34,126 bases of DNA from Bacteroidaceae bacterium (GTDB lineage: Bacteria; Bacteroidota; Bacteroidia; Bacteroidales; Bacteroidaceae): NCBI GenBank assembly GCA_017556045.1, contig JAFZFF010000091.1:1-34126 (forward strand), written 5' to 3'. Positions 4,736 to 33,150 of this stretch are shown piece by piece. Position numbers and translations under genes: made by a program. The first letter of the stretch is position 1. Every line of letters starts with the position of its first letter. The notes beneath the pieces were generated by a model, which was not told the DNA's origin, searched no databases, and worked only from the letters and a program-made list of their open reading frames with translations.

Positions 4736-6413
4736 ATTTAAGAATGGATTGGCAAGGGTGTTTGATGACAACTTGCACACGAAACAATGGCACAACTATG
4801 TAGACTATGCTATCATTGCACTGATTATTATCAGTACACTACAGGTGTTTGTATCTACATTTGATGTGTCGAAGCAATTTGAGCATGTGCTACGGTGGAT
4901 TGATTTGATAACGACTATCACATTCACCTTTGAAGTAACTTTGCGTATTTGGGTAGCCGATAAGTTGGACCCTAAATATAAAGGTGTGTGTGGACGTATA
5001 CGCTACATATTCTCATTCTATGGTTTCATAGATGTGGTGTCTACCTATCCGTTCTACTTGACCTTTTGGTTGCCCATTCCTTATTCGTTGCTCAAGGTGT
5101 TCCGTGTGGCGCGACTATTTAGAGTGTTCCGCTATATGCGTTCGTTCAAACTGCTTGCTAAAGCGTTTCAATCTAAAAAGGAGGAACTTTGGGTGTCGGT
5201 ACAGTTTCTCACCATTGTGACGGTGATACTCTCGTTTGTTCTCTTCTTCTATGAGCATCAGGCACAGCCCGAGGTGTACGATAATGGTATAGTGTCTGTC
5301 GTTTGGGCCTTTGCCCAATACATCGGCGACCCAGGTGGTTTTGCTGAAACTCCTCCAATAACCATGGTGGGACGTCTCATCGCTTGTGTAATTGGTGTAC
5401 TGGGTATTGCTATCTTTGCCGTTCCTGCCGGTCTTATTGGGGCAGGATTTACAGAGGCGATGGCGGATGATAAGAAAGAACGCGTAATCGCAGAGAACCG
5501 AAAAAGATTGCAAAGTGCTTTTGAACGCAAATTGGATCGTCCAACAGGATTTCAAGTGGTGCCACAACATTTGTCCATTTGTGATATTCAAGCGCGAGTG
5601 GGATTGAAGAGTGATGACATCTTTGATGCCGTGCAGGCATCAGACAATTTCCGCTTGATAAACCTTGCCGTAACACAGACGATTGATGAGCACCCCCAAG
5701 ATAAATTGGCGGTAGAGAACTTTATAGTCAACAGACCTTACGGCTGTTGCATTGACCGAGGCTCAAAGGTTACTATTGTGTCACCATCAAGTCTTGCTGA
5801 TCCCTGTATAGGTAACTTCTCTTACTACTTGGCCTTAATCGGTGGATTTAACTATATTAGTCGTGAGATTGGCGAACTTCGTCCCTATCGTTCATACTAT
5901 TCATTTGCTGACCGCTATAATCATGAAGAGAACTTGCCTCTGTTCATGGAGGATTTGGAACGTTTGACTTCACGTGAAGGTAGTTGGACATTGACACCTC
6001 TTGTGGCAAGTGGTGCAAACGAACCAGCATATCCCACCATCTTCCATTTCTCGGCAGGTGGTGCTAAAGGTGACGAACGTTTCGAGGGAGAGAATCTTAT
6101 TGTCAAAGATATGCAGGCATATCGCACATTCTATGGAGATGTAACATCAGTTTTAGAAAAGAATTTCGGCTTGACTTCAGATCATCAGCGTTATCACAAT
6201 GTGACTAGCCCTAACGTCTTTGCTCGAAAATACGAAGAAGGTAAGGGTAGTGAAAATAATATCGTTCTGCGTATAGCGTGGAGTGCCTGCCTTTGGGACT
6301 CACGTCGCATAGTTATAGCCAAAACATTAGCAGATTGCCTTAACCGACATTTTGAAAATGATGTAACGAAGGAATATAATCCCGAGTTGAAAGTTAAGAA
6401 GAGTGGGTATTGA
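4719..6413 (+). CDS. Voltage-gated-type cation channel with atypical pore and large C-terminal domain
   Basis: An inner-membrane protein with the six-helix ion-transport layout: S1 about 27-48, S2 58-80, S3 94-112, S4 122-147, S5 156-178, pore loop 192-210 and S6 216-246. S4 has basic residues at every third position (KVFRVARLFRVFRYMR), a clear voltage sensor. The pore lacks the potassium signature TVGYG; the aligned segment is QYIGDPGGF. After S6, about 310 cytoplasmic residues follow, with part (around 290-350) resembling a regulatory ligand-binding region; I cannot name it. ATG 4719 is preferred over a TTG nine bases upstream. The gene overlaps pcp by 17 bp. The ion carried cannot be deduced; potassium is the family default. 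Confidence 0.85.
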   Translation: MNRLDKFKNGLARVFDDNLHTKQWHNYVDYAIIALIIISTLQVFVSTFDVSKQFEHVLRWIDLITTITFTFEVTLRIWVADKLDPKYKGVCGRIRYIFSFYGFIDVVSTYPFYLTFWLPIPYSLLKVFRVARLFRVFRYMRSFKLLAKAFQSKKEELWVSVQFLTIVTVILSFVLFFYEHQAQPEVYDNGIVSVVWAFAQYIGDPGGFAETPPITMVGRLIACVIGVLGIAIFAVPAGLIGAGFTEAMADDKKERVIAENRKRLQSAFERKLDRPTGFQVVPQHLSICDIQARVGLKSDDIFDAVQASDNFRLINLAVTQTIDEHPQDKLAVENFIVNRPYGCCIDRGSKVTIVSPSSLADPCIGNFSYYLALIGGFNYISREIGELRPYRSYYSFADRYNHEENLPLFMEDLERLTSREGSWTLTPLVASGANEPAYPTIFHFSAGGAKGDERFEGENLIVKDMQAYRTFYGDVTSVLEKNFGLTSDHQRYHNVTSPNVFARKYEEGKGSENNIVLRIAWSACLWDSRRIVIAKTLADCLNRHFENDVTKEYNPELKVKKSGY

Positions 6414-6456
6414 GTTGCCATCCAAAAACTTTCACATTTTGCAAGCATACGAGCAG

Positions 6457-6624
6457 ATGCAAAGTCTGTCTGTAATAACAATAGCAGCGATTACTCCAAT
6501 GATGGTAATCGCTGCTATTGCCGTAGTATATGTTATGAGAAACAAGGTTGCAAGAAATAGTCGCATACATATCTTGAAGGCTTTGTGGATTTATTGCTTC
6601 AAGCATCCTATCGGAATAATGTAA
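6457..6624 (+). CDS. Possible small single-pass membrane protein, 55 aa
   Basis: ATG 6457 opens a 55-residue frame with one hydrophobic helix (residues about 3-24, VITIAAITPMMVIAAIAVVY) followed by a basic tail, the layout of a tiny inner-membrane protein with positive-inside topology. It begins 43 bp after the channel stop on the same strand. Against it, the ribosome site is weak, and the helix codons largely coincide with a perfect 16-bp inverted repeat, so the hydrophobic reading may be a by-product of the palindrome. I treat it as a possibility only. Confidence 0.3.
   Translation: MQSLSVITIAAITPMMVIAAIAVVYVMRNKVARNSRIHILKALWIYCFKHPIGIM
6479..6520. repeat. Perfect 16-bp inverted repeat (hairpin)
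   Basis: CAATAGCAGCGATTAC at 6479-6494 is followed by a 10-base spacer and its exact reverse complement at 6505-6520. The stem is very stable and lies 66 bp after the channel stop. No T-run follows directly, so it could be a terminator, an mRNA stabiliser or a protein-binding palindrome. Confidence 0.75.
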
Positions 6625-6635
6625 ATGCCATCTTC

Positions 6636-6671
6636 AGGGCGGCGATAGGCATGTTCGCCCGTTGCCGCCCT
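6636..6671 (+). terminator. GC-rich hairpin, weak terminator candidate
   Basis: AGGGCGGC at 6636-6643 pairs with GCCGCCCT at 6664-6671 across a 20-base loop, followed by TTTGCC. It lies just after the possible membrane ORF and could end the transcript that starts at 2854 or upstream. The T-run is short. Confidence 0.4.
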
Positions 6672-6774
6672 TTGCCTGCAACTTCTTTTCAAGCAGGCTA
6701 TCCATTATTCTATGTTTGTAACCATTCATAAATCAATGCATTTACTACCGCAAGAGTAGTCAAATAATTTAATT

Positions 6775-6886
6775 TTCGGTAATTTGGCTCGAGTTTTTTC
6801 AGTAATTTGGCGTAAATTCATTCGGTAAAATGGATACGTTTCGGCTGTTTTCAGTAATTTGGCATTGATTTGTTCGGTAATTTGGC
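6775..6886. repeat. Iteron-like array of five 14-bp units with 23-bp period
   Basis: The 14-bp unit TTC(G/A)GTAATTTGGC starts at 6775, 6798, 6821 (degenerate: TTCGGTAAAATGGA), 6850 and 6873. Successive spacings are 23, 23, 29 and 23 bp, about two helical turns, so copies face the same side of the DNA. No gene overlaps it with confidence. This arrangement is what a multimeric DNA-binding protein (operator, replication iteron, or transposase end with multiple sites) would use. It ends in a GGCCGGCCAAAT palindromic stretch. Confidence 0.7.
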
Positions 6887-7164
6887 CGGCCAAATGGCAT
6901 CATTAGAACCGAGGAGGAAGCGGCTAAGCGGTACGTTGAGTTTTTAAGAGGGAAGAGGGAAGAGTGAAGAGGTAAGAGGGAAGAGTGAAAAGGGAAGAGG
7001 GAAAAGTGAAAAGTAAAAATATTGAAGAGATGAAGACAATACATGACGAACCTTCTTTTTGCCTTCTTTATAGCTTCGTCCTTGCTCTCTTTCCGCCCAA
7101 TCCCCAAGACGAACGAAAAGAACGTAGAGCCATGAGGCATTAGGAATTTTCGGGAAGTAATCAT
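6799..7164 (-). CDS. Doubtful minus-strand ORF, 121 aa
   Basis: On the minus strand a frame of 121 residues starts MITSRKFLMPHGSTFFSF. Its first 50 residues look protein-like (a hydrophobic segment, then GRKESKDEAIKKAKRR), but the rest is a translation of the purine-rich tract and the iteron array, reading as FHSSLFPLHSS-type repeats. It may be a short real gene with a spurious extension, a decayed gene, or part of a dispersed intergenic repeat. I keep it only as a record of coding potential here. Confidence 0.2.
   Translation of the reverse strand: MITSRKFLMPHGSTFFSFVLGIGRKESKDEAIKKAKRRFVMYCLHLFNIFTFHFSLFPFHSSLLPLHSSLFPLKNSTYRLAASSSVLMMPFGRPNYRTNQCQITENSRNVSILPNEFTPNY
6948..7015. repeat. 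Purine-rich low-complexity tract
   Basis: About 68 bp consist nearly only of A and G in variants of GAGGGAAGAGTGAA, a degenerate tandem repeat. Such tracts arise by slippage and can adopt non-B structures. It lies between the iteron array and the promoter of the four-helix-bundle gene. Confidence 0.7.
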
Positions 7165-7205
7165 TGAAAAACGATGAGTATATCGTATAATATAGATTGA
7201 TACTA

Positions 7206-7236
7206 TTGTAAGAAATCTGGTGATTGATTAACTTTG
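7206..7236 (+). promoter_or_regulatory. Bacteroidetes-type promoter for the four-helix-bundle gene
   Basis: TTG at 7206-7208 and TAACTTTG at 7229-7236 are separated by 20 bp, matching the Bacteroidetes -33/-7 consensus (TTTG and TAnnTTTG). Transcription would start a few bases downstream, just before the decamer array, giving a leader of about 125 nt to the ATG at 7369. Confidence 0.65.
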
Positions 7237-7251
7237 CGTGTATAATGTTTG

Positions 7252-7316
7252 CTAGGGCGTACTAGGTAAGACTAGGTTTGACTAGGTAGTGCTAGGTAGG
7301 ATTAGGCTGGCTTAGA
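7252..7316 (+). repeat. Decamer array CTAGGNNNNN, exact 10-bp period (5' array)
   Basis: CTAGG begins at 7252, 7262, 7272, 7282 and 7292, followed by TTAGG at 7302 and TTAGA at 7312: seven units with no drift. The other five positions of each unit vary. Ten base pairs is close to one helical turn, so every CTAGG faces the same side of the duplex. It lies in the predicted transcribed leader of the gene at 7369. A related array follows the stop codon of the same gene. Confidence 0.9.
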
Positions 7317-7368
7317 AGTTCCTTGGGAGACAAAACTAAAAAACTAACCCAATTAATAAAAACATCCT

Positions 7369-8040
7369 ATGAACAACGATACACAAGGCTTGGTGCTGAA
7401 GAAGCCTACCGTATGGAAGGAGCTTTACTTCTACCGCAAGAGTGATGCGATATTCCAGCTCACGGTGGCCTTCTGTGAACGTTTCTTGCCGAAGCATGGA
7501 GACCGCACGGTGGATCAGATGGTGCAGGCGGCACGAAGTGGTAAGCAGAATATTATCGAGGGTAGCGAGGATGGACAGACGAGTTCTGAGGTGGAGATAC
7601 GGCTCATCAATATAGCTCGAGGAAGTCTGCAAGAGCTACGTGCCGACTATCTCGACTATATCCATACGCATCATCTGGAGGTGTGGCCCTCGAATAGCAA
7701 GCGGCAAAAGAAGATGCGAGACTTCTGTCACAAGAAGAATGACTATGAAGACTATGAACCTTTGGTGCCCAAGATGACCGATGAGGAGTATGCTAACCTG
7801 TTGCTCACTCTCTGCCATCAGACCGATAAGATGATGTGTGCCTACCTGCGCAAGCTGGAAGAGCGATTTGTCACTGAGGGAGGCATCAAAGAACGCATGT
7901 ATGCCGCGCGCACTGGCTACCGACAAGCACAGGATGCCCGCACTAAGCAACTTGAGGCTGAGAACAACGCCCTGAAAGCAGAGAATGCGGAACTGAAAGC
8001 GCGCATAGTCGAGCTGGAGATGCGCTTGAGGGTGTCTTAG
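7369..8040 (+). CDS. Four-helix-bundle protein (S23/Avd-like) with C-terminal suffix and coiled coil
   Basis: The 223-residue protein has an N-terminal region (about 18-100) like the four-helix-bundle family related to the 23S-rRNA intervening-sequence protein and to the Avd accessory proteins of diversity-generating retroelements. The signature segment ARSGKQNIIEGSEDG lies at 55-69, followed by a conserved ARGSLQELRADYLDY helix (83-97). Residues about 105-190 match the longer suffix version known mainly in Bacteroidetes, and 191-222 form a leucine-rich coiled coil (QLEAENNALKAENAELKARI). No reverse transcriptase gene is in the window. The gene has its own promoter and is bracketed by decamer arrays, the stop codon lying within the first unit of the 3' array. 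The family binds nucleic acid in known cases; the role here is unknown. Confidence 0.85.
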   Translation: MNNDTQGLVLKKPTVWKELYFYRKSDAIFQLTVAFCERFLPKHGDRTVDQMVQAARSGKQNIIEGSEDGQTSSEVEIRLINIARGSLQELRADYLDYIHTHHLEVWPSNSKRQKKMRDFCHKKNDYEDYEPLVPKMTDEEYANLLLTLCHQTDKMMCAYLRKLEERFVTEGGIKERMYAARTGYRQAQDARTKQLEAENNALKAENAELKARIVELEMRLRVS

Positions 8041-8080
8041 GTAGTCCTAAGAATTCCTAGGTGGTCCTAAGAGATCCAAG
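8036..8080 (+). repeat. Decamer array CCTA(A/G)NNNNN after the four-helix-bundle gene (3' array)
   Basis: Units CTTAG (8036), CCTAA (8046), CCTAG (8056), CCTAA (8066) and CCAAG (8076) repeat with exactly 10-bp spacing, and the first contains the TAG stop codon of the gene. The units are largely complementary to those of the 5' array (CTAGG with CCTAG, TTAGG with CCTAA), so the two ends of the mRNA could pair or a protein could bind both as DNA. The array lies between convergent genes. Confidence 0.85.
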
Positions 8081-8097
8081 GAGAAAAAGACGATGCC

Positions 8098-8580
8098 TCA
8101 CTCCAAGAACGAGGCGTCGAAGGTGAAGGGGAGTAGCTCGGTGGTGCCTCCCTCGATGAGGTAGGTGCCCTCGGTACCGTAGAGGAGGATACGGATAGGG
8201 TGGTGGTGACGCTTCTCGGCCTCGAGCATCACCTGGCGGCAGGCGCCACAGGGGGCGATGGGGGTAGGGGTGAAATGTCCGTCAGTATGGGCGGCGATGG
8301 CGAGGGCTACCACGGGGGTGTCGGGGTGTGAGGAGCCGGCATAGAAGAGGGTGGTGCGCTCGGCACAGAGGCCCGAGGGGTAGGCGGCATTCTCCTGGTT
8401 GGTACCCGTCAGTACGGTGCCATCGGCAAGCAGGGCGGCAGCTCCTACGTGGAAGTGTGAGTAGGGGGCATAGCTATGCTCGGTAGCGAGCTTGGCGGCA
8501 TCGATGAGGTGGCGGTCGGCCTCAGGCAATTCGTCGTAGTCGCAGAGGAGGTAGTGACAGGTGTGGGTGAGACTCTTCAT
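8098..8580 (-). CDS. cdd: Cytidine deaminase
   Basis: The 160-residue enzyme converts cytidine and deoxycytidine to uridine and deoxyuridine in pyrimidine salvage; it is cytosolic and, in this family, usually tetrameric. The zinc ligands are visible as C72 in LCAERTTLF and C111 and C114 in APCGACRQ, with E74 as proton shuttle. SYAPYSHFHVGAA (36-48) is the conserved N-terminal motif. I place the start at the ATG complementary to 8578-8580; a longer frame upstream has no family match. A TAnnTTTG -7 element on the minus strand lies at 8605-8612. The gene is divergent from the glucosaminidase gene and convergent with the four-helix-bundle gene. Confidence 0.95.
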   Translation of the reverse strand: MKSLTHTCHYLLCDYDELPEADRHLIDAAKLATEHSYAPYSHFHVGAAALLADGTVLTGTNQENAAYPSGLCAERTTLFYAGSSHPDTPVVALAIAAHTDGHFTPTPIAPCGACRQVMLEAEKRHHHPIRILLYGTEGTYLIEGGTTELLPFTFDASFLE

Positions 8581-8632
8581 GGGGTATTTCTTTACGATTT
8601 TTTGCAAAGGTAAGTAAAAGTTGGTAATAGTG

Positions 8633-8663
8633 TTGTGTGCGCCGATGATTTTTACTATTTTTG
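8633..8663 (+). promoter_or_regulatory. Promoter for the glucosaminidase-LysM gene
   Basis: TTG at 8633-8635 is followed after 20 bp by TATTTTTG at 8656-8663, a full match to the Bacteroidetes -7 consensus. The ATG of the gene lies 17 bp downstream, implying a very short leader. Confidence 0.65.
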
Positions 8664-8680
8664 CGTGATAATGCGATAAT

Positions 8681-9568
8681 ATGACCAAAATGCAGAAATT
8701 GAAGAAATATTTGCTCCTCGTGGTGCTGGGTGTGGTGGCATTGGGCGCGCGTGCTCAGAGTAATGATTATGTGACCTACATCGAGACCTACAAGGATATT
8801 GCCATAGATCAGATGCACAGATACCATATCCCTGCGAGCATCACGCTGGCTCAGGCATTGCTGGAGTCGGGCGCGGGCAAGAGTGAGCTGGCTCGTAAGT
8901 CAAACAATCACTTTGGCATCAAGTGTCACTCGTGGGATGGCAAGCGTACGTACCACGATGATGATGCGGCGGGAGAGTGCTTTCGCGTGTATAAGAATGT
9001 GGCCGACTCGTATGAGGACCACTCGATATTCCTCGCTACGGGTGGCAGATATGCCTTCCTCTTCCAGCTGGAGAAGACGGACTATGAGGGATGGGCACGA
9101 GGACTGAAGCGCGCTGGCTATGCTACCAGCCCCACGTATGCTGACAAGCTGATAGAGATCATCGAGCGCTATGGGCTGGACCGTTATGACAACCCGCAGG
9201 GTAAGCGTACGACGCGCAACCTGGGTCCTCACACTCCGCAACTGGCATTCGACTTGGTATACATCGTGGTGAGACAGGGCGATACGATGCAGGGTATCGT
9301 GGATGAGTTTGGCATCACGAAGTCAAAGATCATACGCTACAATGACCAGTACAAGGGATATGTGCCCGCAAAGGGTGACATCATATATCTGCATCGCAAA
9401 TATCGTAAGGCGCAGAAGCCCTACGAGCACCATGTGGTGGCCGATGGAGAGAGCATGCATATGATATCGCAGATGTATGCGGTGCAGTTAGATCGCTTGT
9501 ATAGGATGAACAAGGTGTCGCCCGATACCTATTCGCCCATGGTGGGCGACGTCATACGCTTGCGCTGA
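8681..9568 (+). CDS. Exported glucosaminidase (GH73-type) with two LysM domains
   Basis: A 295-residue peptidoglycan hydrolase expected to cleave N-acetylglucosaminyl bonds in the cell wall. Residues 1-26 form a signal peptide ending GARAQ. The catalytic domain (about 28-175) shows the ASITLAQALLESGAGKSELA motif with the probable catalytic Glu at 62, then NNHFGIKC, typical of GH73/FlgJ-like domains. Two LysM wall-binding modules follow at about 193-236 (IVVRQGDTMQGIVDEFG) and 247-295 (HHVVADGESMHMISQMY). Export places it in the periplasm or outer envelope. ATG 8681 is used; ATG 8690 is an alternative. The next gene starts 40 bp downstream and may be co-transcribed. Confidence 0.92.
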   Translation: MTKMQKLKKYLLLVVLGVVALGARAQSNDYVTYIETYKDIAIDQMHRYHIPASITLAQALLESGAGKSELARKSNNHFGIKCHSWDGKRTYHDDDAAGECFRVYKNVADSYEDHSIFLATGGRYAFLFQLEKTDYEGWARGLKRAGYATSPTYADKLIEIIERYGLDRYDNPQGKRTTRNLGPHTPQLAFDLVYIVVRQGDTMQGIVDEFGITKSKIIRYNDQYKGYVPAKGDIIYLHRKYRKAQKPYEHHVVADGESMHMISQMYAVQLDRLYRMNKVSPDTYSPMVGDVIRLR

Positions 9569-12909: not shown

Positions 12910-12965
12910 ACGCTGACGTTGACGTTGACCTGATCGGTCAGCGTCGGCGTTGGCGTTCTTTTTAT
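12910..12965 (+). terminator. Strong intrinsic terminator after glmM
   Basis: A 20-bp stem with a few G-T pairs (12910-12929 with 12937-12956) and a 7-base loop is followed by TCTTTTTATT. The left arm has the repetitive pattern ACGTTGACGTTGAC. It ends the DUF4827-glmM transcript. Confidence 0.88.
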
Positions 12966-13050
12966 TAATTGAAAATTGAGAATTGATAATTGAAAATTAT
13001 GCTCCGCGGTGGGAATTCTCGACTTTCCTTCTTAACTCTTAACTTTTAAT
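12966..13050. repeat. AT-rich intergenic simple repeat
   Basis: Variants of AATTGAAAATTG/AATTGATAATTG are repeated at about 12968-12999, and variants of TTAACTCTTAACTTTTAATT follow at about 13031-13051, the two blocks being roughly complementary. A GC island (CTCCGCGGTGGGAATTC) separates them. This kind of filler sequence is often seen between genes in this order; no function is evident. Confidence 0.45.
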
Positions 13051-33040: not shown

Positions 33041-33066
33041 ATCCCTTTTAATTAGGAATTAGTAAG

Positions 33067-33150
33067 TAGGAGTTAGGAATTTATTTATAAAATACGCGCA
33101 ATGCCTAACTCTCTATTAAATTCTAACTCCTAATACCTAACTCCTAACCC
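33067..33150. repeat. Repeats of the TAGGAGTTAGGAATT type between pth and the S4 gene
   Basis: TAGGAGTTAGGAAT at 33067-33080 is the same 14-mer as the left arm of the rplY terminator. A nearly complementary copy lies at 33120-33132, followed by a second (ACCTAACTCCTAA). The region can fold into a long imperfect hairpin and looks like a spread intergenic repeat. Confidence 0.55.

Follow-up and report, generated by a model that had tools for sequence, protein, structure and literature searches.

The gene at positions 7369–8040 of the analysed window, i.e., the whole 34,126-nucleotide stretch of contig JAFZFF010000091.1 from a Bacteroidaceae bacterium, probably encodes the protein of a small mobile element, the two ends of which are short-period repeat arrays. 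The element comprises the following features.

7206–7236, + strand: promoter-like TTG-N20-TAACTTTG ahead of the upstream array, read from the sequence
7252–7326, no strand: upstream decamer array of five exact CTAGG units, then TTAGG, TTAGA and CTTGG, from the sequence and a pattern count
7369–8040, + strand: gene for a 223-aa S23-type four-helix protein with a suffix domain and a coiled coil, from profiles and a structure model
7420–7644, + strand: four-helix bundle (S23/23S_rRNA_IVP) domain, residues 18–92, from profiles and fold
7780–7926, + strand: four helix bundle suffix domain TIGR04258, residues 138–186 (75.8 bits)
7927–8034, + strand: C-terminal coiled coil, residues 187–222, from a model helix and weak coiled-coil family matches
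8037–8081, no strand: downstream decamer array of five units with the stop codon in the first, from the sequence and a pattern count

An earlier note, made from the sequence alone, had described seven exact CTAGG units upstream of the gene. By direct reading, five of the seven are exact and follow each other at 10-bp steps (7252, 7262, 7272, 7282 and 7292), while the remaining two, TTAGG at 7302 and TTAGA at 7312, are degenerate units in the same register, with a further CTTGG at 7322. The downstream array has the five units at 10-bp steps that had been claimed (TTAGG 8037, CTAAG 8047, CTAGG 8057, CTAAG 8067 and CAAGG 8077) but is more degenerate than described, and the TAG stop codon (8038–8040) falls inside its first unit. 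A three-unit pattern, counted with up to two mismatches, on both strands and with overlapping matches allowed, was matched 10 times in the window against a mean of 0.07 and a maximum of 1 in 100 dinucleotide shuffles. In the whole genome, it was matched 16 + 13 times against 0 for a reversed control pattern. The sequence at 7206–7236, which we take to be promoter-like on the Bacteroidetes promoter consensus, places the upstream array probably near the 5′ end of the transcript, and the TAACTTTG box also precedes the array at three other loci (L043, L167 and L169). Rfam gave no match above the gathering score over window positions 6400–8700, which rules out a known RNA family in this region and places the element outside a 23S rRNA gene.

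The protein belongs to the S23/23S_rRNA_IVP four-helix family by profile and fold, in agreement with the earlier reading of an S23-like protein with a coiled coil. TIGR02436 (35.3 bits, cut-off 24) and TIGR04258 (75.8 bits, cut-off 40) both exceeded their cut-offs, the latter assigning the protein to the suffix subgroup; PF05635 fell just below its own (32.5 bits, cut-off 33.8) and was detected at E ≤ 0.01 in 69 of the 69 aligned family members. An AlphaFold model based on these 69 aligned sequences had a mean pLDDT of 91 and seven helices, and the coiled coil, for which the family matches were weak, corresponds to the last part of model helix 173–222. The best solved folds in Foldseek were 2gsc (Xcc0516) and 2rld (the S23-family protein BT_0352), with a probability of 1.00 in the first seven rows, although the E-values were only 0.016 and upwards; the four-helix domain resembled 2gsc with a TM of 0.81 by target length. 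Neither a recombinase domain nor a Y1/HUH transposase was found in the protein with the Pfam and NCBIfam profiles. Among distant family proteins, L144 has a C-terminal stretch resembling the topoisomerase DNA-binding zinc ribbon PF01396 (43.1 bits, over the cut-off of 32), and L041 has a zinc-ribbon-like end that scored under it (27.8 bits); judged by their sequence, these ends hint at DNA. Elsewhere, the S23-type domain is fused in frame with a MeaB-type GTPase (L301:1221–2963, by the PF03308 profile), and a like fusion is seen at L302:1203–2942 by sequence similarity to the former.

Periodic arrays were found beside most homologues, as the earlier note had anticipated for decamer-type arrays. 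The 300-bp flanks were scanned for any period from 6 to 14 bp, each against 20 dinucleotide shuffles, and the loci were compared with control ORFs by Fisher tests. An array was called on at least one side at 73 of 76 suffix loci, drawn from the best 80 of 564 relatives, and on both sides at 36, against 15 and 0, respectively, of 92 control ORFs, which had at least 180 codons and were taken only from suffix loci. The corresponding numbers were 18 and 6 among 30 more distant suffix loci, which include the window itself (L018), with no array called on either side within the 300-bp flanks at the other 12. Among 29 short-family loci, chosen as the best-scoring TIGR02436 matches and not at random, they were 27 and 21; this set includes one locus with internal stops and misplaced flanks (L129) and one with a longer, zinc-ribbon protein (L144). 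Plasmid loci, hand-picked from 39 and 26 match records, had an array on at least one side in 16 of 17 cases and on both sides in 12, and the association extends over several phyla, these loci belonging to Cyanobacteriota (14), Spirochaetota, Bacteroidota and Chloroflexota (1 each). A looser inspection without shuffles revealed periodic flanks also in Bacillota (L278, left out of the array scan for lack of an annotated ORF), Gemmatimonadota (L293) and Riemerella (L294). In the source genome, each of the seven short S23 genes had, by score, a periodic flank on one or both sides, and for six of these genes the period was 7, again without shuffles. The array cores vary among homologues (CCTAGG, CTAGA/CTAGT, CTATAG, TAGAC and others). 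The suffix gene ends with TAG at 53 of 80 loci (best 80 of 564), compared with 84 of 287 neighbouring ORFs; where a downstream array was called, it begins within 12 nt of the stop codon at 48 of 62 suffix loci.

The relative orientation of the two arrays was compared across loci. The earlier note described them as complementary unit by unit, such that the mRNA ends could pair in register. This apparent complementarity arises largely because the core CCTAGG is palindromic, although a slight advantage of the actual unit order over permuted units was retained in the window (z −2.2). Across 31 suffix loci with both arrays, the median z was −1.1, with values below −2 at 8. At 24 of these loci, the upstream array paired less well with the downstream array in sense than in antisense orientation, and at 4 it paired better, indicating that suffix arrays are more often direct than inverted copies. 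Likewise, the direct match exceeded the inverted match at 40 of 76 suffix loci and the reverse held at 6, and register pairing was rejected as a general property of suffix elements. The shorter S23 family, by contrast, typically has inverted arrays that can pair: the inverted match clearly exceeded the direct match at 22 of 30 loci of the short set, with the reverse at 3. Upstream arrays of this family were G-rich in 29 and C-rich in 6 of 39 cases, and downstream arrays were C-rich in 28 and G-rich in 4 of 37. Such strand polarity suggests that the transcribed strand or a single strand matters, and may be a hint of RNA or single strands as the form that is read. Downstream of the genes at L111 and L116, non-palindromic TAGAC arrays turn to GTCTA half-way, forming a long inverted repeat.

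Comparison of empty and occupied sites, as proposed earlier, lent support to a small mobile unit delimited by the arrays. Two Nostoc plasmids have a common three-gene operon, A-B-C (94, 99.7 and 93% identity, respectively). In one plasmid, an S23 unit separates B from C, and in the other a different unit separates A from B. Each occupied junction is empty in the other plasmid, so that, to judge from these sequences, whole units of the short family insert. The inserts are approximately 500 and 420 bp long, the first extending approximately 45 bp past its downstream array, and no target duplication was established at the insertions. Also in Nostoc plasmids, approximately 163 bp with a gene-less inverted pair, which has the unit of the adjoining S23 gene (L298), correspond to approximately 22 bp at the same place in L299. 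In the suffix family, L167 and L043 share 86% identity from a point approximately 240 bp ahead of the gene to within the downstream array, a stretch that includes the promoter, the upstream array, the gene and the start of the downstream array, and their flanks are unrelated. Between aspS and menA, the gene and its arrays are present at four loci (at L110 on the downstream side only), whereas L237 is empty, with 70 nt between the matched ends. Thirty menA loci were compared, an aspS match being found only in L237; L115, with aspS present and the menA match absent, was left out of the occupied count. At the window's own site, the congener with the closest cdd (G396) has neither the gene nor the arrays, and its homologue (83%) lies at another place in the genome. 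The shared blocks around cdd are 156 bp apart as against 938 bp, without a clean junction and with one block that looks dispersed in the genus. Insertion at base level is therefore apparent only for the short family, and the suffix family presents presence or absence at fixed loci without a clean junction. Nearby, window positions 6721–6941 form a block 90.5% identical to G396 near cdd, with repeated TTCGGTAATTTGGC motifs, and the block beside it (7065–7160) has matches in other congeners.

Seven of 18 plasmid loci placed the S23 unit between annotated defence genes (CRISPR, restriction, DISARM/BREX and helicase/methylase), so such units also shape defence operons. The flanking pairs at these seven (L267, L270, L278, L280, L281, L282 and L284) were cas6/cas4 (two), hsdS/hsdR, drmD/pglX, helicase/methylase, cas2/cas1 (antisense) and cas10/cmr3. 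Another unit (L283) sits between a DUF1156 gene and a HEPN-domain gene.

Arrays without a gene were dispersed through genomes. CTAGG arrays were present in 14 of 121 family genomes, and TIGR04258 was detected in 11 of these 14, compared with 21 of the 107 genomes without them, counts that include the gene's own flanks. In eight of the 11 (G000, G309, G313, G325, G354, G377, G393 and G404), listed arrays also lay off the gene's contig, while no off-contig CTAGG array was found for the other three among the matches listed; G417 and G393 are apparently one genome, with identical array coordinates. Three genomes (G344, G356 and G370) had CTAGG arrays without a detectable homologue. The source genome has the suffix gene once, while CTAGG arrays occur on further contigs as well, namely, C3, C6, C53 (with a single exact unit) and C100. 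Arrays near unrelated genes, which the earlier note had named as damaging to its proposal, are thus common as gene-less CTAGG arrays, but occur mostly in gene-bearing genomes. A 7-bp unit, AATTGAN, occupies 33 places in the source genome, as judged by eye among 52 matches (the reversed pattern gave 7), including window position 12967, and flanks two of its seven short S23 genes. Some arrays contain runs of identical spacers, as from local duplication. Further arrays were observed in the window: a purine-rich 7-/21-bp array (AAGAGGG) upstream of the element at 6946–7019; a 6-bp inverted array (ACGTTG type) followed by 7-bp AATTGAN arrays at 12910–13049; and a gene-less inverted pair of 7-bp arrays (AATTAGG/CTAACTC type) at 33050–33148, which immediately follows the stop codon of one gene (peptidyl-tRNA hydrolase-like) and precedes another (S4-like), both named by sequence reading.

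The placement of gene-less chains was counted in 35 regions, with no chain of four CTAG units in L154, L195, L198 and L202 and with L155 left out. This yielded 36 chains without a four-helix gene (7 without a called neighbour and 6 inside called ORFs), some neighbouring chains within one gap being counted separately. Among the 29 with both neighbours called, the neighbouring genes were tandem in 17 cases, convergent in 10 and divergent in 2, and 22 of the 27 tandem or convergent chains were within 60 bp of a stop codon. Such a distribution, together with the position of the gene's own arrays, one within the predicted leader and one at the stop codon, would also suit a resident RNA regulator, i.e., a protein that binds the arrays in its own leader, in its 3′ end and in other mRNAs and tunes stability or translation, mobility being incidental. 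Passages of the literature on other repeats point the same way, reporting similar placement and transcription for Xanthomonas and Nostoc heptamers (PMC4692102) and proposing a translational role for TAACTGA repeats (PMC4679880). We nevertheless consider such a regulator unlikely, since whole units insert in the Nostoc plasmids, unit positions differ in close relatives, and one Nostoc plasmid lacks a gene-less inverted pair that another has.

The period of the arrays followed the protein. Periods of 9 or 10 accounted for 126 of 136 called arrays in both suffix sets, and periods of 7 or 8 for 40 of 49 in the TIGR02436 short set; 7 or 8 also predominated when the shorter S23 family was taken as a whole, with 16 of 17 plasmid-borne genes included. 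Mapped onto a tree of 106 suffix proteins, of which 87 carry a label of 8, 9 or 10, the period requires nine changes, and the clade of the window (47 proteins) has a period of almost uniformly 10, with L065 and L086 as exceptions and some rows without a call. Vertical inheritance of the gene together with its flanks is part of this match between period and phylogeny. The sister proteins L111 and L116 have called periods of 10 and 9, respectively. CTAG arrays off the gene's own locus agreed with its period in 13 of 17 genomes (p 0.05), namely, 6 of 9 belonging to the 10-bp type and 7 of 8 to the 9-bp type, a modest correspondence; with own-locus arrays included, the values were 9 of 11 and 7 of 8 (p 0.005). 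Twenty-four genomes were searched for the off-locus test, two of which had no arrays elsewhere; L101, L103, L114, L116 and L121 were left out of the 9-versus-10 comparison, and four of these five matched neither pattern. L114 has CTATAG arrays of its own, yet its genome contains 28 matches of the 9-bp pattern. In G415, G416, G420 and G423, arrays of the other period outnumber those of the gene's period, with further S23 genes there left uncounted. The earlier proposal that the protein recognises its own flanking arrays thus gains comparative support, and the protein is a candidate binder.

These results also bear on the view that the gene is passive cargo, carried by slippage-born tandem repeats that recombine easily and are not recognised by the protein. 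An excess of heptamers has been ascribed to polymerase slippage, an idea cited in passages of PMC4692102, and the runs of identical spacers are compatible with it. Nevertheless, none of the 92 control genes of the same loci had arrays on both sides, cores and spacing are retained although the spacers vary, and the period goes with the protein, if more weakly genome-wide, which makes passive carriage improbable, somewhat more so than the regulator. Least credible, with very little probability left to it, is that the arrays are DNA sites presenting one helix face to a repeated DNA-binding protein, as the earlier note had offered as an alternative: the 10-bp step in the window clade, the palindromic cores and the PF01396-like ends of L144 (over the cut-off) and L041 (under it) would fit, but the argument from the step is refuted by the arrays of related proteins, whose 7-, 8- and 9-bp steps do not keep one B-DNA face, and short-family arrays are strand-polar.

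Under the mobile-element reading, which we prefer, the layout would be promoter, decamer array, S23-type gene and decamer array. In the course of events that we infer, covering binding, the oligomer on the array, the type of nucleic acid, service in trans and the chemistry of movement, the protein would most likely be an oligomer, as is its S23 relative Xcc0516, reported as a homopentamer in passages of PMC4990558. This oligomer would read the array unit in nucleic acid, with one protein unit per repeat, which would explain why the period tracks the protein family while the spacer bases drift. With both ends bound, the unit, as RNA or single-stranded DNA, may be marked for copying to other sites, as a rule right after a stop codon, a position that would leave the adjacent genes intact; arrays lacking a gene would represent defective copies that are served in trans. 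In favour of the mobile-element reading are the association of arrays with the gene, the agreement in period, the differing positions of the units, the strand polarity of the short family and the Azospirillum 23S rRNA insertion described below. Counting against it are the mostly direct suffix arrays, which are unlike ordinary element ends, the three genomes with CTAGG arrays but no detectable homologue, the 12 of 30 more distant suffix loci with no called array, the confinement of base-level insertion to the short family with no target duplication established, the modest off-locus period match, and the share of the period-phylogeny match that is due to vertical inheritance.

More tentatively, with the chances in our judgement just short of even, S23 genes with inverted or palindromic arrays may together constitute a single large class of mobile elements that spans bacterial phyla, their movement being assisted by a four-helix oligomer that reads the arrays, with no classical recombinase. 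The 23S rRNA intervening sequences (IVSs) would then be one branch, and gene-less copies would account for many of the unexplained 7- to 10-bp repeats in Bacteroidetes, in Cyanobacteria and perhaps in Xanthomonas. The widespread gene-plus-repeat units may explain some hitherto unexplained short tandem repeats, offering a candidate protein partner for repeats catalogued without explanation in several bacterial groups and connecting them with the 23S rRNA insertions. A protein family whose repeat spacing changes with the protein also provides a direct test of recognition.

Among known systems, dispersed extragenic REP repeats, often behind stop codons, outnumber the linked RAYT gene, which carries repeats on its flanks. 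The window element resembles this system in that dispersed cognate repeats outnumber the gene (once in the source genome, with CTAGG on further contigs), but differs in that its protein has no Y1/HUH match and its repeats are periodic arrays, not single palindromes. Avd of diversity-generating retroelements belongs to the same four-helix superfamily as S23. The 23S rRNA IVSs are closer, sharing the protein family: they carry an S23 ORF between complementary ends and, in passages of PMC4990558, are termed selfish, with function and origin termed unclear. In Azospirillum, an S23 match lies inside a 23S rRNA gene, and the two arms of the insertion consist of heptamer arrays in inverted orientation (score 52, against 23 for direct). 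The window element differs in its location outside rRNA, its 10-bp palindromic units, its additional suffix domain and the mostly direct arrays of its family, many relatives lying between protein-coding genes. Published heptamers, namely, TAACTGA in Beggiatoaceae, Cyanobacteria and Bacteroidetes and GGGAATC or GGGGA(C/T)T in Xanthomonas and Nostoc, are likewise intergenic 7-bp arrays, some in inverted pairs, and occur in Cyanobacteria and Bacteroidetes, as do the S23 genes with 7-bp arrays found here. Terms for S23 or helix bundles have no occurrence in the main texts of PMC4679880 and PMC4692102, and a link between heptamer arrays and S23 genes was not found among the matches listed in the open-licence literature, outside which most subscription papers lie. 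Overall, the S23 protein family and the 23S rRNA insertions are already known, and three points appear to be new: family-specific arrays commonly bound the genes of this family, the units move between operon genes, and arrays of a similar kind are scattered about without a gene.
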